DNA of 64,000 nucleotides, taken from contig NZ_WTVA01000014.1 in NCBI RefSeq assembly GCF_009882935.1, forward strand, positions 124,001 to 188,000, given 5' to 3'. The position numbers and the translations under genes were made by a program. This stretch comes from Sneathiella chungangensis (GTDB taxonomy: Bacteria > Pseudomonadota > Alphaproteobacteria > Sneathiellales > Sneathiellaceae). A model generated the notes under the pieces. The model was not told the origin of the DNA, did not search any database, and saw nothing but the letters and a program-made list of their open reading frames with translations. Within the stretch, counting starts at the first letter, position 1. Each line of letters starts with the position of its first letter. Below are positions 8,247 through 56,188 of this stretch, one piece after another.

Positions 8247-11015
8247 ATGGCGGCGCTGATGTCCCTGTCGTTCCTATATCCCTGGGTTCTCACGGCATTG
8301 CTCGCGCTTCCGTTGATATGGTGGTTGCTGCGCATTGTACCGCCGCAGCCAAAGTCTGTAATTTTTCCGGCAATGCGGTTTCTTTATGGTCTTAAAAAGG
8401 ATGAGCAATCCTCCGCGACGACGCCATGGTGGCTCCTGCTGTTACGGCTGGTGATTGCGGCATTGATTATTCTTGCCATCGCCCGTCCGGTGCTGAATCT
8501 GCCCGAGCAGCAAAACCGGTCGGGCGAGATGGTCCTGATCGTTGATGACGGCTGGACCTCTGCTCAATCATGGGACGGGCTTAAGGCGACCCTAACCAAA
8601 CTGATTAACGACAGTACGCGTCAAGGGCGCCAGATTTTTGTCGTCACGACGTCACGGCGCGGAGGCGGTGCAATTCCATCGCTGCAACCCCTTGCCGACC
8701 AGGAAGCGCTCGGTATCGCGGCATCATTGGAGCCTAAATCCTGGCCTTCGGATTATAGCGATCTTTCCCTGCTCCTGCCGCGCCTAGAAACACTTGATAA
8801 CCCTGAGTTTATCTGGTTATCAAGCGGCATATCGCGCAGCGCTGACCTGTCAGGCCTGCAGGATTTCCTCGCCGCACTCAATGATATGGGGCCGGTTACG
8901 ATATACCGCCAAGAAACCGTCGTTGCGGCGCCAATCATAGAAACACCCAAGTTTGACGGTGACAAGCTCAACATACCGCTATCTCTGCCAACCGGCGCGA
9001 CGAATACGGACAGCGTTTTAACCGCGCGGGCAGGGAACGGACAGATCCTGGCATCCGCACCTGTCACCTTTCCAGAGGGTGAGTACAGTGCGATTGTCGC
9101 ACTTAATGTTCCCAACCGGATTCGCAATGACATCCGGCGACTTGAAATCGCCAACAGCAACAATGCCGGCGCCGTTTTTCTGCTGGACCAGAGGTGGCAA
9201 CGGCGGCAGGTGGGACTGGTGACCAGCGATTCCTCGCAAGTCGACCAGCCACTATTGAACGAAACCCACTATCTTAGGAAGGCGCTGGAGCCGTTCTTTG
9301 ACATTACAGGCGGTACAATTGAAGAATTGCTTGAAGAAAAGCAGTCGCTTATCGCGCTTGGGGATACGGCGAACCTGCCGGAAGGCGTAGAGCGGACGCT
9401 TGGCGACTGGATCGCAAAGGGCGGCGTGTTGATCCGCTTTGCCGGTCCGAAGCTCGCAAATTCGACGGGCGCTCTCGTCCCGGTCGAGTTACGCTCGGGT
9501 AATCGCAGTCTGCAGGGCGCCATGTCCTGGAACCAGCCAGCACCGCTCGGGCCTATACCGCGCCAGAGCCCGTTCACCGGCCTCAGTATTCCGAAAGACG
9601 TGACCGTTACAAAGCAGGTTCTCGCCAATCCTTCCCCTGATCTTCTCGATAAAACATGGGCGCAACTGGAAGACGGTACGCCGCTTGTTACGGCGGCGAA
9701 ATCCGGGGCCGGTTGGATTGTCCTGTTTCATACGACGGCGTCGCCTGACTGGTCGAATTTGGCGCTTTCCGGCTTATTTGTTGAAATGCTCAGGGAGATC
9801 GGCAACCTCGGTCAGTATGTCAATCAGAATTTGGCGGAACAACAGAGCCTGCCCCCCTTCCAGCTGCTGAACGGATTCGGACGGCTCACGACGGAGACGG
9901 GCGTTGTCGACCCTCTGAATACGGCAGATATCGGAAGCCTTTCGCTGAACGAGAGGCACCCGCCGGGCCTTTACGGCAACGAGAATTTCAGTATCGCCAT
10001 CAACATCGGTCAGTTTGACGCGGCATATTCCGTGGTGGACATGACGCAGTTCGCCGCCACTTTCCGGTATTTCGAAAGATCTTCTCTCGTCGACTTACTT
10101 CTTCCCCTACTTCTGACGGCGCTTTTGCTTGTGATGATTGATCAAATTATCTCTCTTCATCTCCAAGGCAGGCTCCCCGCATTGGGGAAAGTATCCCGGG
10201 CATCCATTTTCATTTTCGCTGTCTCCTTCGGCCTATCATCGATCCCCGGTGAAGCACCTGCACAGGAAGCAAATCTTGGCGGCGATGCGAAGATACTCGC
10301 GGCAACACTGGATACGCGGCTCGGCTATATCCTGACGCAGGATCGCACGGTCGATCAGATGAGCCACGATGGCCTTGCCGGTCTCAGCCGCCAGCTGCGA
10401 AACCGGACCGCGGTTGAGGCGGAGGATCCGCTTCCGATAGATATTGAGCAGGATGAATTGATTTTCTACCCCTTCATCTACTGGCCCATCACCCCGGATT
10501 TTCCGCCCCTATCAGAACAGGCCATCCTCAAGCTCAACGATTATTTTAAGGGCGGCGGCACGGTTCTTTTCGATACACGCAACCAGAATGCTGCCGGCCT
10601 GTATGGTATTGATTTATACAATAGCCCGGAAAACACCCGGCTTCGCCAGTTGACATCGCGGCTCGACATTCCAAGGGTTCAGCAGGTTCCACCGGATCAC
10701 GTTCTTACCCGCGCCTTCTATCTTATGCAGACTTTCCCCGGACGTTATGACGGCGGCGATGTCTGGATCGAGGATACCAGCGGCATTCAGGGCAATGACG
10801 GAGTTGCATCCGTCGTCATCGGCAGCAATGACTGGGCGGCGGCCTGGGCGATCGACTCAGATGGCCGCTATCAGGCGGCTACCCTTCCCGGAAATGAACG
10901 CCAGCGCGAACTTGCCTATCGTTTCGGGATCAATCTCGTGATGTATACGCTCACCGGCAACTACAAATCGGATCAGGTCCATATACCGGCCATTCTTGAA
11001 AGACTGGGGCAATGA
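8247..11015 (+). CDS. DUF4159 domain protein with BatA-like membrane N-terminus
   Basis: 922 residues. Residues 1-85 match the N-terminal aerotolerance-regulator (BatA) module, with two transmembrane helices and SLSFLYPWVLTALLALP. A long periplasmic or cytoplasmic middle part follows, with a VWA-like strand (MVLIVDDGW). A transmembrane helix lies at about 613-635, and a second hydrophobic, signal-peptide-like segment at about 650-675. The C-terminal DUF4159 domain (about 685-922) contains FYPFIYWPIT and GGTVLFDTRNQN. The order suggests an N-terminal membrane module fused to a DUF4159 domain on the outer face. It overlaps the next gene by four bases (ATGA). Family call is firm; the biological role is unknown. 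Confidence 0.88.
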   Translation: MAALMSLSFLYPWVLTALLALPLIWWLLRIVPPQPKSVIFPAMRFLYGLKKDEQSSATTPWWLLLLRLVIAALIILAIARPVLNLPEQQNRSGEMVLIVDDGWTSAQSWDGLKATLTKLINDSTRQGRQIFVVTTSRRGGGAIPSLQPLADQEALGIAASLEPKSWPSDYSDLSLLLPRLETLDNPEFIWLSSGISRSADLSGLQDFLAALNDMGPVTIYRQETVVAAPIIETPKFDGDKLNIPLSLPTGATNTDSVLTARAGNGQILASAPVTFPEGEYSAIVALNVPNRIRNDIRRLEIANSNNAGAVFLLDQRWQRRQVGLVTSDSSQVDQPLLNETHYLRKALEPFFDITGGTIEELLEEKQSLIALGDTANLPEGVERTLGDWIAKGGVLIRFAGPKLANSTGALVPVELRSGNRSLQGAMSWNQPAPLGPIPRQSPFTGLSIPKDVTVTKQVLANPSPDLLDKTWAQLEDGTPLVTAAKSGAGWIVLFHTTASPDWSNLALSGLFVEMLREIGNLGQYVNQNLAEQQSLPPFQLLNGFGRLTTETGVVDPLNTADIGSLSLNERHPPGLYGNENFSIAINIGQFDAAYSVVDMTQFAATFRYFERSSLVDLLLPLLLTALLLVMIDQIISLHLQGRLPALGKVSRASIFIFAVSFGLSSIPGEAPAQEANLGGDAKILAATLDTRLGYILTQDRTVDQMSHDGLAGLSRQLRNRTAVEAEDPLPIDIEQDELIFYPFIYWPITPDFPPLSEQAILKLNDYFKGGGTVLFDTRNQNAAGLYGIDLYNSPENTRLRQLTSRLDIPRVQQVPPDHVLTRAFYLMQTFPGRYDGGDVWIEDTSGIQGNDGVASVVIGSNDWAAAWAIDSDGRYQAATLPGNERQRELAYRFGINLVMYTLTGNYKSDQVHIPAILERLGQ

Positions 11016-38145: not shown

Positions 38146-38159
38146 TTGATCCTGATCAA
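38146..38159 (+). promoter_or_regulatory. FNR/FixK-type site upstream of phaC
   Basis: TTGATCCTGATCAA is a perfect match to TTGAT-N4-ATCAA. A -10-like TTATAT stands at 38182-38187, with its centre 32 bases after the site centre; this places the site at about -41.5 of the expected start, the class II activator position. It should make phaC and the genes behind it respond to low oxygen. Confidence 0.75.
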
Positions 38160-38236
38160 TGCTGCAATGCAAAAGATTGCGTTATATTGATCAAGTTTCA
38201 ATACTTCCTAAGTCGGATGTAAGAATGGAAGTTGTC

Positions 38237-40147
38237 ATGGCACAGAAATCACGCTCCAATAATAAGGGTAAATCGCGAACCGGCCCAAATGGCGCTGTTC
38301 CCGCCAAGCTGGCGTCGGTCGAATTGCCGGCTGCGGCGAAAAAAGAAGCATCAGGCAAAAGCGTTTCGCCTCATTACCGAACCGTATCTCCTTTTGAACG
38401 CGATTCCTATTTTTCTACGTCGATTCAGGAAATTCTCGACCGGTCGATGCATGCCACAGCGGCCCGCTTTACCGGCGGCCTGTCGCCGAGCGCCCTTGCG
38501 GGGGCCTATGCCGATTGGGCCCTTCACCTCGCCACAGCGCCGGGAAAACAAATCCAGCTTGTGGAGAAAGCGGCGAAAAAGAGTATCCGGCTCATGAATT
38601 ATGCAGCCCAATGCGCACAAAATGATCAATGCCATGGGACGGCAGTGCCCTGCATAGAGCCGCTACCGCAGGATAGCCGTTTTAAGGGCGACGCTTGGCA
38701 GACATTCCCTTATAACCTGCTGCATCAAACCTTCCTGATGAACCAGCAATGGTGGCACAACGCGACAACGGGGGTGCGTGGCGTCACCAAACAGCATGAA
38801 AGAGTCGTCGAATTCGCGACGCGCCAGATCCTCGACATTTTCTCGCCATCAAATTATTTTCTCACGAACCCTGAAGTTATCCAGAAAACGATCGATGAGA
38901 ACGGTCAAAATCTGGTGCGCGGCTATCAGAATTTCGTCGCGGACTTCGAAGCGGCCATAAGCGGGCGGAAACGCACCGACGAACAGAAATACGAAGTCGG
39001 CCGTAACCTGGCGATAACACCGGGAAAAGTGGTTTATCGCAATCGGCTTATCGAACTCATCCAGTACGAACCGACGACCGATAAGGTCCGGCCGGAGCCG
39101 GTTCTGATCGTTCCGGCCTGGATCATGAAATATTACATTCTGGATCTCTCGCCGGAAAATTCTCTCGTCAAATACCTGACAGAGCAGGGATTCACGGTTT
39201 TCATGATTTCATGGAAGAATCCGGACCCTGACGACCGGGATTTATCCATGGATGATTACCGGCAGCTCGGCATAATGACGGCCCTGGATGTGATCGGGAA
39301 TATTGTTCCTGAACAAAAAGTCCACGGCGTTGGCTATTGCCTTGGTGGCACTTTACTGACCATTGCCGCCGCCGCCATGTCCCGTGATCATGACGACCGT
39401 TTGCAAACCCTGTCCCTTTTCGCGGCGCAAGCCGATTTCACGGAAGCGGGAGAGTTGATGCTGTTCATCAACGAAAGTCAGATCACCTTCCTTGAAGACA
39501 TGATGTGGGAACAGGGGTTCCTCGACACCAAGCAAATGGCCGGCGCGTTCCAGCTGCTGCGCTCAAGCGATTTGATCTGGTCTCGGTCCGTTCATGATTA
39601 CTTGATGGGCGATGCGCCGGTCCTGAATGATCTGATGACGTGGAATGCCGATGCGACGCGGATGCCCTACCGGATGCATTCGGAATATTTGCGGCAACTG
39701 TTCCTCAATAACGATCTTGCAGAAGGCCGCTTTATGGTTGAGGGCCGTCCTGTGACGGTTTCAGATATTCGCGTTCCGATCTTTGCGGTTGGCACGGAAC
39801 ATGACCATGTCGCCCCTTGGCGCTCGGTTTTCAAGTTCCATATGCTGGCAGACACTGAGATCACTTTCCTGCTGACAAACGGCGGGCACAATGCGGGCAT
39901 CGTTTCGGAGCCCGGGCATCCGCGCCGTCATTACCGCGTCGGCACTCATAAAATTGACGATCGGTATAGGGATCCGGAAGAGTGGTATGGTGAAATGCCG
40001 GAACAGGACGGATCCTGGTGGCCCGAGTTCAGCACCTGGCTGAAAGCGCATTCTGGTGATCCGGTGTCGCCGCCACCCATGGGACTCGCAGAAATGGGAT
40101 ACAACATCGTTGGAAACGCGCCGGGAATATATGTGTTTCTGGAATAA
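38237..40147 (+). CDS. phaC: Class I poly(3-hydroxyalkanoate) synthase
   Basis: 636 residues from the ATG at 38237 (GGAAG before it; ATG at 38225 also possible). After a basic, low-complexity N-terminus of about 50 residues come the PhaC N-terminal domain and the alpha/beta hydrolase core. The triad is visible: Cys368 in GYCLGG (lipase-box variant), Asp523 in HDHVAPW, His551 in NGGHNAG. It polymerises 3-hydroxyacyl-CoA into storage granules. No phaA, phaB, depolymerase or phasin gene lies here; instead a hydratase-phosphotransacylase fusion and an acyl kinase follow. Confidence 0.93.
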   Translation: MAQKSRSNNKGKSRTGPNGAVPAKLASVELPAAAKKEASGKSVSPHYRTVSPFERDSYFSTSIQEILDRSMHATAARFTGGLSPSALAGAYADWALHLATAPGKQIQLVEKAAKKSIRLMNYAAQCAQNDQCHGTAVPCIEPLPQDSRFKGDAWQTFPYNLLHQTFLMNQQWWHNATTGVRGVTKQHERVVEFATRQILDIFSPSNYFLTNPEVIQKTIDENGQNLVRGYQNFVADFEAAISGRKRTDEQKYEVGRNLAITPGKVVYRNRLIELIQYEPTTDKVRPEPVLIVPAWIMKYYILDLSPENSLVKYLTEQGFTVFMISWKNPDPDDRDLSMDDYRQLGIMTALDVIGNIVPEQKVHGVGYCLGGTLLTIAAAAMSRDHDDRLQTLSLFAAQADFTEAGELMLFINESQITFLEDMMWEQGFLDTKQMAGAFQLLRSSDLIWSRSVHDYLMGDAPVLNDLMTWNADATRMPYRMHSEYLRQLFLNNDLAEGRFMVEGRPVTVSDIRVPIFAVGTEHDHVAPWRSVFKFHMLADTEITFLLTNGGHNAGIVSEPGHPRRHYRVGTHKIDDRYRDPEEWYGEMPEQDGSWWPEFSTWLKAHSGDPVSPPPMGLAEMGYNIVGNAPGIYVFLE

Positions 40148-40180
40148 GCGGGTTCACTCACAGACCTTTTAGGGCCGATC

Positions 40181-41575
40181 ATGCAATATATCGAAAACAG
40201 GACATATGACGAAATTTCCGTTGGCGATACGGCAACGTTAGTTCGTGATCTGGGGGCGAAAGACATCGAACTCTTTGCGGTGATGTCCGGAGACGTGAAC
40301 CCGGCTCATGTGGATACCGAATTCGCCAAGTCCGACATGTTCCATAAGGTAATTGCCCACGGCATGTGGGGTGGCTCCCTGATCTCGGCGGTTCTCGGAA
40401 CCGAACTTCCGGGTCCGGGGACAATATATCTGAAACAATCTCTCAGCTTTCTAAAACCCGTCGGTTTGGGGGACCGGGTAACCGTGCGGGTCACCGTGAA
40501 GGAGAAAATAGACGAAGCACATCGTCTTATACTTGCCTGCGATTGTACCAATCAGAAAGGTGAGGTTGTGATAGACGGTGAGGCAGAAGTGATCGCGCCA
40601 ACGGAAAAGGTCCGCCGACCGCGTGTTCTTCTGCCAGAGGTCCATCTGCATGAAACCGGCGAACAATATCGGCAGCTTCTTGCGGCGACGCACGATCTGG
40701 ATCCCATCCCGACGGCTGTCGTGCATCCCTGCGATACCCTCTCCCTGATCGGCGCACTGGAATCAGCAAAAGAAGGGTTGATTATTCCTTATCTCATTGG
40801 ACCGACGGCAAAAATTCTCGCCGCAGCGAAGGAAGCGAACAGGGAACTCGGATCAGTCAAGATTATCGATGTTCCACACAGCCATGCCGCCGCCCGCAAG
40901 GCCGTCGATATGGTCCGCGATGGAACCGTCATGGCATTGATGAAAGGCAAGCTGCATACGGATGAAATTATGGAGGCCGTCGTCGACCGTGAGTTTGGCC
41001 TCAAAACGGAACGGCGCATCAGTCATGTGTTTGTTCTCGACGTACCGCATTATCCGAAACCGCTTTTCATCACCGATGCGGCGATAAATATATATCCGGA
41101 CCTGAATGACAAGCGGGATATCATTCAGAATGCGATAGAGCTCGCCCATGCACTTGGGATCGATATGCCAAAAGTCGCCGTTCTTTCGGCAATCGAAACG
41201 GTTTATCCCAAGATCAATTCCACCGTTGATGCGGCGGCGCTTTGTAAAATGGCGGACCGCGGCCAGATTACCGGTGGCTTGCTTGACGGCCCTCTTGCCT
41301 TTGACAATGCCATCTCGAAATCAGCGGCGGAAGCGAAGGGAATTACCTCCGCGGTGGCTGGCGATGCCGACATATTGGTTGTGCCGGATCTTGAGGCCGG
41401 GAATATGGTCGCCAAGCAGCTGATCTATCTGGCCGGCGCCGAATCTGCCGGTATTGTGCTCGGCGCGCGGGTGCCGATCATACTTACCAGCCGGGCGGAC
41501 GGCACCCTGTCCCGCCTCGCTTCCTCGGCGCTTGCCCAGCTTTTTGCGCATCATCTCCTGCAAGTGAAACCATGA
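40181..41575 (+). CDS. Bifunctional (R)-enoyl-CoA hydratase / phosphate acyltransferase
   Basis: 464 residues in two parts. Residues about 1-140 are a MaoC/PhaJ hydratase with SGDVNPAHVD; Asp38 and His43 have the spacing of the PhaJ catalytic pair, and GTIYLKQSLSFLKPV follows. Residues about 155-464 are a phosphate acetyl/butyryltransferase domain (VVHPCDTLSLIGALESAKEG, LTSRADGTLSRLASSALA). It links (R)-3-hydroxyacyl-CoA to enoyl-CoA and exchanges CoA for phosphate on an acyl group. It starts 33 bases after phaC and overlaps the kinase gene by ATGA. Confidence 0.93.
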   Translation: MQYIENRTYDEISVGDTATLVRDLGAKDIELFAVMSGDVNPAHVDTEFAKSDMFHKVIAHGMWGGSLISAVLGTELPGPGTIYLKQSLSFLKPVGLGDRVTVRVTVKEKIDEAHRLILACDCTNQKGEVVIDGEAEVIAPTEKVRRPRVLLPEVHLHETGEQYRQLLAATHDLDPIPTAVVHPCDTLSLIGALESAKEGLIIPYLIGPTAKILAAAKEANRELGSVKIIDVPHSHAAARKAVDMVRDGTVMALMKGKLHTDEIMEAVVDREFGLKTERRISHVFVLDVPHYPKPLFITDAAINIYPDLNDKRDIIQNAIELAHALGIDMPKVAVLSAIETVYPKINSTVDAAALCKMADRGQITGGLLDGPLAFDNAISKSAAEAKGITSAVAGDADILVVPDLEAGNMVAKQLIYLAGAESAGIVLGARVPIILTSRADGTLSRLASSALAQLFAHHLLQVKP

Positions 41576-42762
41576 CCGAGGCAGTCCTTGTCCTGAATGC
41601 AGGATCGTCCAGCATCAAATTCGCTCTGTATTCCCTTGCGGAAATTGCGGGCATGCCGCATGTGCGCGGCAAGATCGAAAGCATTCGACGCGCGCCTGTT
41701 TTCAAGGCCGTGGACAGGAACGGGCAGGAGCTGGACAAAGGATCGCTTGGATCCATAGACGTCTCCTCTGATCATCACGAGTTAACCGCGCACTTGCTCG
41801 ACTGGGTCGAACAACATGACGACGGACACGAGGTTGTTGCAATCGGACATCGCGTCGTCCATGGCGGCCGTGATTTTTCGGCGCCAGTCCAGATTAACCG
41901 TGAAGTGCTGGAAAAGCTGAAGGGTTTCAATTCCCTTGCACCATTGCATCAACCCAATAACCTCGCCCCGATCGAGGCACTGTTCGCCCGTGATGCGAAT
42001 GTCATTCAAGTCGCCTGTTTCGATACGTCATTTCACCGTACACAGACGCATTTGGCGGAACTCTTTGCACTGCCGAGACGATTCATGGAGGAGGGTGTTA
42101 TCCGCTACGGTTTTCACGGCCTGTCCTATGAATATATTTCCGGCGCACTCACAAAGCATCTTGGTGACGACGCGGGCGGACGGATCATTGTTGCGCATCT
42201 TGGAAACGGCGCCAGCCTTTGCGCCATAGAGAACCGGAAAAGCGTGGCAACCAGCATGGGTTTCACCGCTCTCGATGGGCTGGTTATGGGGAGCCGTTGC
42301 GGCACGCTCGATCCCGGGGTAGTTCTCTATTTAATGCAGGAACGCGGCATGAATGCCGATCAGATACAGCACCTTCTCTACAACGAATCCGGCCTTCTCG
42401 GCGTGTCGGGCATCAGCAATAACATGCAGGTTCTTCTGGAAAGCGACCGGGCGGAAGCGAAGGAAGCAGTCGATCTCTTCTGTTATCGCGCCGCAAGTGA
42501 AATTGCCTCCCTCATTGTCCCGCTTCAGGGCCTCGATGCCATCGTGTTCACCGCCGGCATTGGCGAGAATTCCCCGGCTATCCGCGCTGAAATCTGCCGT
42601 AATCTTAATTGGCTCGATATCGCACTTGACGATCGCGCCAATGCCGCCAACAAAACAATTATCAGTACGGATTCCTCCGCAATAACCGTCTCCGTTATCC
42701 CGACCGATGAGGAAAGTGTCATTGCGAAAGCAACGCGGAAATTATTCCTGGCGGGGAATTAG
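41572..42762 (+). CDS. Acetate/propionate/butyrate kinase
   Basis: 396 residues of the ASKHA family. LNAGSSSIKFALY (8-20) is the phosphate-1 motif. HRVVHGG, FDTSFH, YGFHGLSYEYI and HLGNGASLCAI are the classic acetokinase signatures. It turns an acyl phosphate plus ADP into acid plus ATP. With the phosphotransacylase upstream it forms a complete acyl-CoA to ATP route. Chain length cannot be decided: AckA and short-chain kinases share these motifs. Confidence 0.92.
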   Translation: MTEAVLVLNAGSSSIKFALYSLAEIAGMPHVRGKIESIRRAPVFKAVDRNGQELDKGSLGSIDVSSDHHELTAHLLDWVEQHDDGHEVVAIGHRVVHGGRDFSAPVQINREVLEKLKGFNSLAPLHQPNNLAPIEALFARDANVIQVACFDTSFHRTQTHLAELFALPRRFMEEGVIRYGFHGLSYEYISGALTKHLGDDAGGRIIVAHLGNGASLCAIENRKSVATSMGFTALDGLVMGSRCGTLDPGVVLYLMQERGMNADQIQHLLYNESGLLGVSGISNNMQVLLESDRAEAKEAVDLFCYRAASEIASLIVPLQGLDAIVFTAGIGENSPAIRAEICRNLNWLDIALDDRANAANKTIISTDSSAITVSVIPTDEESVIAKATRKLFLAGN

Positions 42763-42773
42763 CGAGGCATCTC

Positions 42774-44501
42774 ATGGCGGAATCGAAAATCGAAAGAATT
42801 ATTCCGGCAGTCGCGTGGCTTAGAACCTATCGCATAGGGGAATTTCCGGGTGACCTGACCGCCGGCATCATTACTGCGATCCTGCTCGTTCCTCAGGCAA
42901 TGGCCTATTCTATCCTGGCCGGCTTGCCGCCGGAAGTCGGCCTATACGCAAGTATCGTCCCGCCTATTCTTTACGCGTTCTTCGGTAGCAGCCGGGCGCT
43001 GGCCGTCGGGCCCGTTGCCGTCGCATCGCTGATGGTGGCGAGCGCCCTTGGCAGCCTCGCACTCCCGGGATCAGCCGACTATATTGTTGCGGCGTTGGTT
43101 CTTTCCGCCCTGATCGGCGTCTTCCTTTTGATAATGGGCATTGCAAAGCTCGGCTTTCTCGCCAACTTCCTGAGCCATCCCGTGATGTCCGGATTTACCA
43201 GCGCGGCCGCAATCGTTATCGCCTTCAGCCAGTTAAAGCACCTTCTCGGCCTCGACATCCCGCGTGGCGCGCGCATCGATGAAGCTGTCCTTTATATTTT
43301 CCAGCATATCCCTGAAGCCAACACAACGACGGTTTCCATCAGTGTTGCCAGCCTCCTGCTCCTGTTCGGCCTTCGCCAGTATCTTGGACCATTGCTGATA
43401 AAACTCGGCCTGTCAGAAGGAATTGCCAATACTCTCGTGAAGGCCGGGCCCATGCTCGTCGTCGTAATGATGACCGTTCTTTCGGCCAACATGCTTTGGA
43501 ACGAAACGTCGGGACTGGCGGTCGTCGGGAGCATCCCAGCGGGCCTTCCGCCGCTCACTGTCCCCAGCTTTGATATTGCGCTCTGGCGGGAGCTTGCGGT
43601 TTCCGCGGCATTGATCGCACTGGTAAGCTTTGTTGAAAGCGTTGCGATCGCCCGCGTTCTCGCGAGCAAGCGTCGCCAGAAAATTGACGTGAACCAGGAA
43701 CTCGTTGGCCTCGGCGTCGCGAACATCGGCGCTGCCTTTTCAGGCGGCAGTCCGGTTTGCGGCGGATTCAGCCGCTCGGTCGTCAATTTTGCCGCCGGCG
43801 CCAACACCCAGTTGGCGGCGATCATCACCGCGTTTCTGATTGCGCTTTCGGTTCTTTTCTTCACGCCGCTTTTCTACTATTTGCCACAGTCCGTGTTGGC
43901 GGCCATCATCATAATTGCCGTTCTTGGCCTTGTTGATTTCAAAGCGCTCAAGGTCAATTGGCGTTACAGCAAGAGCGATGCCGCAGCCTGGGTTGTTACC
44001 TTTATCGTCGTGATGGCTGAGGGTATCGAATTGGGTATCGTCGCCGGGGTGGTGATATCGCTGATCCTGTTCCTCTGGCGCAGCAGCAAGCCGCATATCG
44101 CCATTGTCGGGCGTGTCGGAAACACGGAGCATTTCCGCAATATCAAACGCCATTCAGTGCGTACCTGTCCGCATTTGCTGGCCATTCGGGTGGATGAAAG
44201 CCTGTTTTTTGCCAATACCCGTTATTTCGAGAATTACGTCCTTTCCGCTGTCGTCGACCAACCCGACGTCAAGCATGTCGTATTCATCTGCAGCGCTATT
44301 AACGCGATCGACGGCAGTGCCCTCGAGTCCCTGGAACAGCTCATCTCGGATCTTGAAAGCGCCGGCGTCACCTTCCATCTGGCGGAGGTAAAGGGTCCGG
44401 TAATGGATCGGCTTGAAAGAACGGATTTTCTGGACCATTTGAAACCCGGAAAGGTGTTTTTAAGCACGCATGACGCATTTAAAGAACTGGAATGCGCGTA
44501 A
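42774..44501 (+). CDS. SulP family inorganic anion transporter with STAS domain
   Basis: 575 residues. About 11-14 hydrophobic segments form the SulP core, with PGDLTAGIITAILLVPQAMAYSILAGLPPEVGLYAS near the start. The cytoplasmic STAS domain covers about 450-565 and includes FICSAINAIDGSALESLEQLI. Family members carry sulfate, bicarbonate or dicarboxylates with protons or sodium. It follows the kinase by 11 bases and touches the next gene through TAATG, so it belongs to the phaC unit. Confidence 0.9.
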   Translation: MAESKIERIIPAVAWLRTYRIGEFPGDLTAGIITAILLVPQAMAYSILAGLPPEVGLYASIVPPILYAFFGSSRALAVGPVAVASLMVASALGSLALPGSADYIVAALVLSALIGVFLLIMGIAKLGFLANFLSHPVMSGFTSAAAIVIAFSQLKHLLGLDIPRGARIDEAVLYIFQHIPEANTTTVSISVASLLLLFGLRQYLGPLLIKLGLSEGIANTLVKAGPMLVVVMMTVLSANMLWNETSGLAVVGSIPAGLPPLTVPSFDIALWRELAVSAALIALVSFVESVAIARVLASKRRQKIDVNQELVGLGVANIGAAFSGGSPVCGGFSRSVVNFAAGANTQLAAIITAFLIALSVLFFTPLFYYLPQSVLAAIIIIAVLGLVDFKALKVNWRYSKSDAAAWVVTFIVVMAEGIELGIVAGVVISLILFLWRSSKPHIAIVGRVGNTEHFRNIKRHSVRTCPHLLAIRVDESLFFANTRYFENYVLSAVVDQPDVKHVVFICSAINAIDGSALESLEQLISDLESAGVTFHLAEVKGPVMDRLERTDFLDHLKPGKVFLSTHDAFKELECA

Positions 44502-46066
44502 TGACGCAAAAGGACGCGGCCATATCACAGGAAGAGGTTATCTCCTTCCTGAAAAATCCGGATAACTATCCCTGCAATCCCGAAATAATAGAGGTTCACG
44601 ATACCCACGGCGCCCTGGTTTTCCTTGCGGGGGAAGATGCCTACAAAATCAAGAAGGCCGTGAAATTTCCCTATATGGATTTCTCGACGCTTGATCTGCG
44701 GCGTAAATTCTGCGCGCGGGAACTTGATATCAATCAACCGGCCGCGCCCGAAATATATCTTGGCGTTGTCGCGATTACGCAGGAAAAGGATGGGTCTCTC
44801 GCTTTCGATGGCGCAGGGCAACCCGTCGAATGGGCCGTTCACATGAAACGGTTTGAACAAAAGAACATGCTGGACCAGTTGCCGCATGAAGCGGTGACCG
44901 ATAAGACGCTGATCGCGAAACTGGCAGGGGTCGTTTTCAAGTATCACCAAGCGGCGAAACGAGTGAATGTTTCGGACGGTCCTTACCGCGTCAAAGTCCT
45001 GATAGACGAGTTGATGGAAAGCTTCGAAGACGCACCGGATATCTTTTCGAAGAAGAAGGTGGCACAATTCGGCAAACTCGCGATGCAACATCTGGCGAAC
45101 GCCCATTACTGCCTGCGATTCCGCGGGCGGCGGGGCTTTATCCGGCGTTGTCATGGTGATTTGCATCTACGCAACATCGTCCTGTTGGATGGCAAGCCGG
45201 TCCTGTTTGACGCCCTCGAATTTGACGAGAACCTGGCAACCACTGACGTTCTGTACGATCTCGCTTTTCTTCTGATGGATCTTGACCAGCGCCGCATGAG
45301 CCCGAGCGCGAACCAGTTGCTCAATCGCTATCTGTATCTTTCCGGCGCGCTGGACGATATTTACGGGCTGACAGCGATGCCGCTTTTCCTCTCTATCCGC
45401 GCGGGGATCAGGGCAATGGTCGCCAATGACCATGCCCGGCAGGTTAGCGGCAAAGCGGCCGAAAAGGAACAGGCGGCCGCGCGGGAATATTTCTTAACCG
45501 CGCATCAATATCTGAAGGCAAAGCAGCCCGTCCTGATTGCCGTTGGCGGCTTTTCCGGAACGGGCAAAACTACCCTCGCCGCTCGGCTGTCAGGGATTTT
45601 GGAACATGTGCCGGGATTTCTGCATTTGCGTTCCGACCTTGAGCGAAAATCGCTTTTCGACGTTCCGGAAACAGAACGGCTGGCGCCGACAAGATACACG
45701 CAGGAAACCAGTGACCAGGTCTATGCGCGGCTGCATCACAAGGCGCGTATCGCCCTTAAATCCGGCCAGCGGGTTATCGTCGATGCGGTCTTTTCAAAAG
45801 AATCGGAGCGCGCCTTATTCGAACGGCTTGCGGAGGAGTTTGGCATTCCGTTCGTCGGGCTATGGCTCGAGGCGAAAGAGTCCCTGATCGCCGAACGTGT
45901 CGCGGCGCGTAAAAATGACGCCTCAGACGCGACTCCCACCGTCGTGCACCAACAGGTAAATCGCGGTGCCGGCGACATCAACTGGCACCGGATTGATGCC
46001 AGCGGGACGGAATTCGACAGTTTGCAACAGGCTCTTTCGATTTTAGAGCTATCGAAAATCGACTAG
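44501..46066 (+). CDS. Two-domain protein: aminoglycoside phosphotransferase-like kinase plus AAA/P-loop ATPase
   Basis: 521 residues from ATG 44501 (GGAA 8 bases upstream, TAATG overlap with SulP); an ATG at 44492 is the alternative. The N-terminal half has the APH-like kinase catalytic pattern CHGDLHLRN near residue 217 followed by LFDALEFDENLATTDVLYDLAFLLMDL. The C-terminal half carries Walker A GGFSGTGKTTLA near 349-360 and resembles small-molecule kinases. The combination is a recognised but functionally unassigned family. It ends the phaC operon and is not an antibiotic-resistance gene by context. Confidence 0.88.
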   Translation: MTQKDAAISQEEVISFLKNPDNYPCNPEIIEVHDTHGALVFLAGEDAYKIKKAVKFPYMDFSTLDLRRKFCARELDINQPAAPEIYLGVVAITQEKDGSLAFDGAGQPVEWAVHMKRFEQKNMLDQLPHEAVTDKTLIAKLAGVVFKYHQAAKRVNVSDGPYRVKVLIDELMESFEDAPDIFSKKKVAQFGKLAMQHLANAHYCLRFRGRRGFIRRCHGDLHLRNIVLLDGKPVLFDALEFDENLATTDVLYDLAFLLMDLDQRRMSPSANQLLNRYLYLSGALDDIYGLTAMPLFLSIRAGIRAMVANDHARQVSGKAAEKEQAAAREYFLTAHQYLKAKQPVLIAVGGFSGTGKTTLAARLSGILEHVPGFLHLRSDLERKSLFDVPETERLAPTRYTQETSDQVYARLHHKARIALKSGQRVIVDAVFSKESERALFERLAEEFGIPFVGLWLEAKESLIAERVAARKNDASDATPTVVHQQVNRGAGDINWHRIDASGTEFDSLQQALSILELSKID

Positions 46067-56174: not shown

Positions 56175-56188
56175 TTGATCCTGATCAA
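56175..56188 (-). promoter_or_regulatory. FNR/FixK-type site upstream of the persulfide dioxygenase/SQR operon
   Basis: TTGATCCTGATCAA, identical to the phaC site. On the minus strand TATAAT follows at 56155-56150, about 29 bases centre to centre, suitable for a class II activator promoter. The site is between the end of ftsH and this operon, so it acts on the latter. Confidence 0.72.

Follow-up and report, generated by a model that had tools for sequence, protein, structure and literature searches.

A 64,000-nucleotide stretch of the genome of Sneathiella chungangensis (contig NZ_WTVA01000014.1, positions 124,001 to 188,000; referred to as the window, whose own coordinates are used throughout) carries a gene cluster in which a polyhydroxyalkanoate (PHA) synthase gene is followed by the genes of an acyl-phosphate pathway. 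Five genes of the + strand, between 38237 and 46066, form a tightly packed operon behind a perfect FNR box: phaC (38237-40147; taken from the list of open reading frames (ORFs), PhaC_N 213 bits in the profile search), a fusion of a MaoC-type (R)-hydratase with a PTB-type phosphotransacylase (40181-41575; recognized from the ORF list, profile searches and alignment), ackA for an acetokinase-family acyl kinase (41572-42762; Acetate_kinase, 374 bits), a SulP-family anion transporter (42774-44501; Sulfate_transp and STAS domains) and a two-domain APH-like/AAA_33 kinase (44492-46066; APH and AAA_33 domains). Successive genes are separated by a gap of 33 bp, an overlap of 4 bp, a gap of 11 bp and an overlap of 10 bp. 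The same five-gene cluster had been proposed in a sequence-only reading of this DNA, and both the ORFs and the family profiles agree with it. Since the in-frame ATG at which the listed phaC ORF opens (38159) sits inside the FNR box, the start of phaC was taken as 38237.

The genome of 3.81 Mb contains another phaC with a higher profile score (C12:778751, on contig C12), so that the gene of the operon is referred to as the second phaC. The phaA and phaB genes, stated to be missing in the sequence-only reading, are indeed absent from the locus; as a genome-level fact the statement had to be rejected, a phaA-phaB pair being found on contig C11 (C11:1039423-1041327). The genome also holds phaR and two phasin genes. 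Between phaR and the phaA-phaB pair an ORF (locus L262, 3521-4789) resembles by eye a PhaC-type α/β hydrolase and is not among the PhaC_N matches. The ackA of the operon is the sole acetokinase-family gene of the genome; such a gene was found in 11 of 24 genomes of the genus, in a single copy each.

The FNR box is an FNR/FixK-type palindrome, TTGATCCTGATCAA, located at 38146-38159 without mismatch and without an assigned strand. Three perfect palindromes of this kind occur in the window versus 0.10 expected, a number reached in none of 100 shuffles; matches with up to two mismatches (39 versus 29.9 expected, with 8 of 100 shuffles as high) are not significantly enriched. Directly abutting the box, on the - strand at 38160-38171, lies a PhaR-type site, TGCATTGCAGCA, perfectly matching the published consensus TGCRNYGCASMA, which was derived from footprints and a promoter alignment (PMC6201568; here and below, statements on published work refer to the accessible parts of the papers cited). 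It is the sole perfect PhaR 12-mer in the 64 kb (0.84 expected across the window). If one mismatch is allowed, the 12-mers do not exceed the chance level (13 in the window versus 18.9 expected); the argument for this site rests on the position of the perfect 12-mer. A -10-like hexamer, TATATT, is suggested by the sequence at 38183-38188 of the + strand, and with the transcription start predicted from it the centre of the FNR box would lie about 42 bp upstream, in class II geometry. The PhaR-type site would then span the -35 region, as the PhaR site of phaP4 likewise does (PMC6201568). A promoter scan of the window did not list the operon promoter, the -35 of which is replaced by the FNR box. 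With a perfect box at an activating distance from the predicted start and an FNR protein bearing the Fe-S cysteine cluster C-x2-C-x7-C encoded in the genome, the operon is a candidate member of the FNR regulon, as the sequence-only reading had anticipated from an FNR-like site; with a consensus site and a phaR gene it is likewise a candidate target of PhaR.

Relatives of the operon were compared in 89 loci, comprising the window, 80 named loci (kept of at least 588 relatives) and a further eight from the same genus or family, with two duplicates dropped; some loci stop at contig ends, so that absences are upper bounds. An FNR box with at most one mismatch followed directly by TGC-N3-GCA was found in the window and in L110, L029, L043, L112, L116 and L117, the box being perfect also in L110, L029 and L043. 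In L029, L043, L110, L112 and L117, the perfect PhaR 12-mers of the whole locus of 19-20 kb occur solely at the place abutting the FNR box; L116 and L113 have no perfect 12-mer across the locus. A good -10 hexamer stands at equal distance in L029 and L043. The genus mate L113 is devoid of phaC and has a perfect FNR box directly before the fusion (about 9288-9570), which would fit a loss of phaC with the promoter retained. As a positive control, one phasin gene (L263) has perfect PhaR 12-mers 39 and 100 bp before its ATG, three being present in its 3.3-kb locus versus 0.01 expected. Of 33 operons that begin with phaC, two of them truncated at a contig end, 10 are preceded by an FNR box with at most one mismatch; taken over all operons the count is 14 of 88, versus 1.7% of random windows. 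An FNR box abutting a perfect PhaR-consensus site, and the recurrence of this arrangement in genus mates, are new here; by their sequence the two sites suggest an AND gate that would respond to low oxygen plus granules of poly(3-hydroxybutyrate) (PHB).

The fusion belongs to NCBI family NF006045 (759.9 bits versus 282, over residues 2-460), and the proteins of the genus mates L029 and L043 are 82% and 77% identical to it. Alignment with the (R)-specific hydratase 1iq6 demonstrated that D38 and H43, which we take to be the functional hydratase dyad, are intact. The transacylase domain stays below the cut-offs for phosphate butyryltransferase (TIGR02706; 310.7 versus 410.5) and for classical phosphate acetyltransferase (TIGR00651; 68.3 versus 311.2), and its best solved relative is the phosphate butyryltransferase 7vg9. 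Among 397 evenly drawn Pseudomonadota genomes, including that of the window, 75 have an NF006045 match at E ≤ 1e-130 and 41 the two-domain form (matches starting at profile position 10 or earlier). In the PHA synthase the triad C368, D523 and H551 (numbered from the ATG at 38237) is intact, as it is in 36 of 36 aligned synthases. Its score against the class I model TIGR01838 is below the cut-off (554.1 versus 622.65), this still being the best class model, and the product is predicted to be a class I-like synthase.

The kinase exceeds the cut-off of the acetate/propionate kinase model TIGR00016 (371.6 versus 293.4) and remains far from that of the butyrate kinase type (TIGR02707; 48 bits versus 289). 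The clostridial Ptb-Buk system also places a PTB-type phosphotransacylase beside an acyl kinase; unlike Buk, the kinase of the window is of the AckA type. Its pocket departs from that of acetate kinases sensu stricto, in which Val93, Leu122 and Pro232 are highly conserved acetate-binding determinants (PMC4390882) and Val93 together with Ala181 excludes butyrate in modelling of Salmonella AckA (PMC3475010): Val93 (V96) and Leu122 are kept, and Pro232 is replaced by alanine (A233; numbering checked on chain 1tuu). In an alignment of 79 rows, position 232 is occupied by A in 74, P in two, T in two and S in one, one of the P rows being a second, distant kinase of its locus (L069); Leu122 is conserved in 73 of the rows. 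Among the kinases adjoining a PTB-type transacylase, 129 of which were readable in 146 loci, position 232 is A in 116, T in nine, S in two and P in two (L030 and L227). Another reading covered 79 loci, one genus mate being included twice (L131 is identical with L214); outside the genus 68 of 70 full-length kinases were read, two not being fetched. There the residue is A or T in 17 of 17 kinases with a PTB-type partner (defined as more than 45% identity) and Pro232 in eight of eight with a partner assigned to the Pta type for its low similarity (seven at 47-60 bits, L205 at 173 bits). Kinases without a visible partner, many of them in short flanks, have P in 35, A in four and T in four. With A, T or S in 127 of 129 beside the PTB type versus Pro in all eight beside the Pta type, transacylase subtype and kinase pocket go together. 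The loss of Pro232 coupled to a PTB-type partner is a new observation; no account of this change, nor any assay of the fusion enzyme, was found in the literature on the fusion and the kinase pocket, as covered in part and mostly outside subscription papers.

With regard to gene neighbourhoods, the kinase follows the transacylase in 78 of the 89 loci. Within 6 kb of the fusion there is a phaC in 35 and a FabI-like gene in 27, the latter frequently downstream of ackA or inserted between phaC and the fusion. The SulP and APH-AAA genes follow the kinase in the window and in four genus mates alone (L029, L043, L110, L113). No FabI gene was found near the operon of the window, and the genome as a whole gave one FabI match, which at 46% identity is regarded as the housekeeping enzyme. 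An Azospirillum brasilense plasmid (L217, 1990-8656) has the order pflB, eno, fusion (hydratase Asp replaced by Asn) and kinase (Ala at 232); judging from these genes, the fusion pair there has a fermentative context and a broken hydratase. On a plasmid of Sulfitobacter sp. SK012 (L216), phaC (annotated as α/β hydrolase), fabI, fusion and kinase are flanked by ATP synthase genes (atpD and neighbours) on one side and by acsA/pdhA on the other, an arrangement that may be an energy island for low oxygen.

Similar clusters in other bacteria had been expected in the sequence-only reading, rightly so, and they are already published; the fusion, its adjacency to phaC and low-oxygen control were therefore discarded as novelties (PMC8231600, PMC8686332, PMC5862806, PMC10888616). 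The closest in order is 'group D1' of Burkholderia sensu lato, with phaC, phaJ/pta fusion, ackA and fabI (PMC8231600). The same kinds of phaC, fusion and kinase occur in the same order in the window operon, which unlike that group lacks fabI and has the SulP and APH-AAA genes added; in the part of PMC8231600 concerned, oxygen or PhaR control, the kinase pocket and hydratase loss are not treated for group D1. Cobetia and Halomonas share the common core in the order phaC1, fabI, bi-pta and ackA, interpreted as acetate/propionate activation, and atp genes are named in the figure legend (PMC8686332); unlike the window, theirs includes fabI. In Bradyrhizobium diazoefficiens, phaC2 is a FixK2 target and is raised in a phaR mutant, as are pta (blr3457) and ackA (blr3458) of the operon blr3456-blr3459 (PMC10888616). 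The likeness thus lies in a second PHA synthase that answers to an FNR-family activator and is influenced by PhaR, and in a pta-ackA pair induced on loss of PhaR; unlike the single operon here, phaC2 and pta-ackA are at separate loci there. Triple deletion of fnr genes in Herbaspirillum lowers phaC2 and phaC3 100- and 60-fold, respectively (PMC5862806). In Burkholderia, ackA and pta are present, and one PHA synthase is raised at low oxygen (PMC3759415); no mention of this cluster was found in the accessible parts of that work and of PMC6127331.

The operon is best explained as a low-oxygen, PHB-gated branch of storage metabolism, in which a second synthase is placed beside an ATP-yielding acyl-phosphate pathway, a reading whose chances we judge to be evenly balanced. 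FNR, active without oxygen, would activate the single operon promoter; PhaR not drawn onto PHB granules would sit over the -35 region and block it, so that the operon would be expressed in cells that are short of oxygen and contain PHB. The synthase of the operon may then recycle CoA and store reduced carbon, while the PTB-type phosphotransacylase and the kinase with the altered pocket would convert a short acyl-CoA to the acid and ATP, the direction of flux being a presumed one. The hydratase domain, active by its residues, would equilibrate crotonyl-CoA with (R)-3-hydroxybutyryl-CoA; roles of the SulP transporter and the APH-AAA kinase in this scheme are conjectural. The fermentation idea is plausible, and it touches the old question of where aerobic PHB-storing bacteria obtain ATP once oxygen fails: at one promoter, a PHA synthase and an acyl kinase pathway meet putative sites for an oxygen regulator and a granule regulator. 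The sequence-only reading, partly supported overall, had likewise linked PHA and low oxygen to ATP from an acyl-phosphate; the FNR and PhaR-type sites and the predicted module from acyl-CoA through acyl-phosphate to acid and ATP, with the sole acetokinase, speak for that link. A bolder version, which we regard as tentative and unlikely, holds that the PTB-type phosphotransacylase and the Pro232-less kinase form a distinct, widespread acyl-phosphate pathway, different from Pta-AckA and serving a non-acetyl group ((R)-3-hydroxybutyryl or propionyl), PHB-linked forms of which convert monomers to free acid and ATP from an oxygen-AND-granule promoter. If true, it would mean substrate-level phosphorylation from stored PHB.

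Several observations weigh against the PHB-gated branch, the first of them concerning its promoter. L112 and L116 have a poor -10-like hexamer, and no perfect PhaR 12-mer is present at the loci of phaC1 (L109), phaR/phaAB (L261, L262) and the second phasin (L264). A statement in PMC6201568, on B. diazoefficiens and phbC5, speaks against direct PhaR control. In favour of PhaR control, a PhaR-type core lies within 140 bp of the operon start in 36 of 135 loci (11 more were skipped) versus 15 of 458 other genes, with 32 of 94 intact fusions, two of 26 broken ones and two of 15 standalone transacylases having it, all counts being uncorrected for kinship; in the evenly drawn sample it drops to two of 34 (intact 2/14, broken 0/20), near the 3.3% of other genes. 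The enrichment is thus due to the named set, which is rich in Rhodocyclales, and to Sneathiella; many Rhodocyclales have a PhaR-type site before the fusion without a nearby phaC. Judged by these sites, the PhaR link appears strong for the window operon and its genus and clade-bound elsewhere.

As to the enzymes, the transacylase domain exceeds the cut-off of NF008852 (PRK11890), a phosphate acetyltransferase subfamily (480.3 versus 413), and Val93 of the kinase is invariant (79 of 79 rows). Acyl specificity cannot be read from the sequence, and the acyl group is probably broader than acetyl; genes annotated as 'acetate kinase' or 'phosphate acetyltransferase' beside PHA genes may, as the pocket suggests, act on another substrate. 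PhaC2 and PhaC3 of relatives have been reported to lack activity or to matter little for PHB (PMC10888616, PMC5862806), and for this reason the PhaC of the operon may by analogy modulate instead of polymerising. The coupling of hydratase and phosphotransacylase, on which the sequence-only reading had centred, loses weight as the core of the system. In the window both domains are present and the dyad is intact; of 130 fusions, however, 27 have a broken dyad, a count that is new here, 16 further loci keep the transacylase without a hydratase domain, and in the genus mate L043, whose operon is the same, Asn takes the place of the Asp. In four other fusions the dyad reads D/I. Because of these repeated losses, one of them in the same operon of a genus mate, transacylase and kinase look like the lasting core and the hydratase like an optional step, and in a considerable share of the genes annotated as 'bifunctional hydratase' the hydratase appears to be dead.

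A quick tree of 146 transacylase domains requires at least 11 changes of dyad state and at least six between fusion and standalone forms; its starred branches alone force six changes to the broken and three to the standalone state. The standalone transacylases of L116 and L117, which have phaC, adjoin the clade of the window with support 93. That the dyad is kept because of phaC was considered and found no support: the raw table leans that way (40 intact and three broken with phaC, 63 and 24 without), but 11 independent pairs on the tree give a median sign-test p of 1. Among 42 evenly drawn fusion loci (29 with 1.5-kb flanks), 11 have PhaC in the flank (D/H in nine, A/H in one, one gap) and 31 do not (D/H in 12, broken in 19 including N/H in 13, the other six read from pairwise alignments).

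The leading alternative is plain acetate overflow, in which Pta-AckA would handle acetyl-CoA at low oxygen, with the hydratase as a passenger and PhaC as a parallel electron sink. It would account for the Azospirillum pflB-eno-fusion-kinase order with its D-to-N hydratase, the repeated loss of the dyad or domain, the invariant Val93 and the NF008852 score. The pta-ackA genes of S. meliloti are reportedly tied to acetate kinase activity. However, Pro232, an acetate determinant (PMC4390882), is replaced in 127 of 129 kinases, that of Azospirillum included, and the closest solved relative of the transacylase is a phosphate butyryltransferase, which make this explanation rather unlikely. Assimilation, the pair running backwards and spending ATP to activate acetate or propionate for PHA synthesis, has been suggested for Burkholderia sensu lato, where the gene order is the same (PMC8231600), and for Cobetia, there as an additional way to use acetate/propionate (PMC8686332); it is quite improbable here, since an FNR-type promoter implies energy shortage, in which spending ATP on acetate would be unlikely, and PhaR control, if real, would turn the operon on only once PHB is present. 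Very improbable is butyrate fermentation from (R)-3-hydroxybutyryl-CoA through crotonyl-CoA (hydratase), butyryl-CoA (FabI-like reductase) and butyryl phosphate to butyrate and ATP, which would supply an NADH sink as well as ATP and could draw on the FabI-like genes near the fusion elsewhere (Y-x6-K intact in both sequences inspected), but is opposed by the retained Val93 and the broken hydratase of L043, and finds no support in this genome, the only FabI of which is taken as housekeeping.

Returning to the low-oxygen signal in the window, the second perfect TTGATCCTGATCAA is located at 56175-56188, before genes on the - strand (56101-53504) adjoining an FtsH-like gene. They comprise a metallo-β-lactamase-fold gene, presumably ETHE1-like, and a BLH-phosphatase/FAD-oxidoreductase fusion, which we take to be sulfide:quinone reductase-like, and are perhaps an FNR-controlled sulfide-oxidation pair. 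The third perfect palindrome (44724-44737) lies inside the APH-AAA gene and is probably due to chance, rare as perfect sites are in the window. In L218 (1-2077) the cluster has annotated RbbA and HlyD-type efflux genes as neighbours, and ORFs resembling them by eye are found near other clusters, e.g. upstream in L031 and L078.

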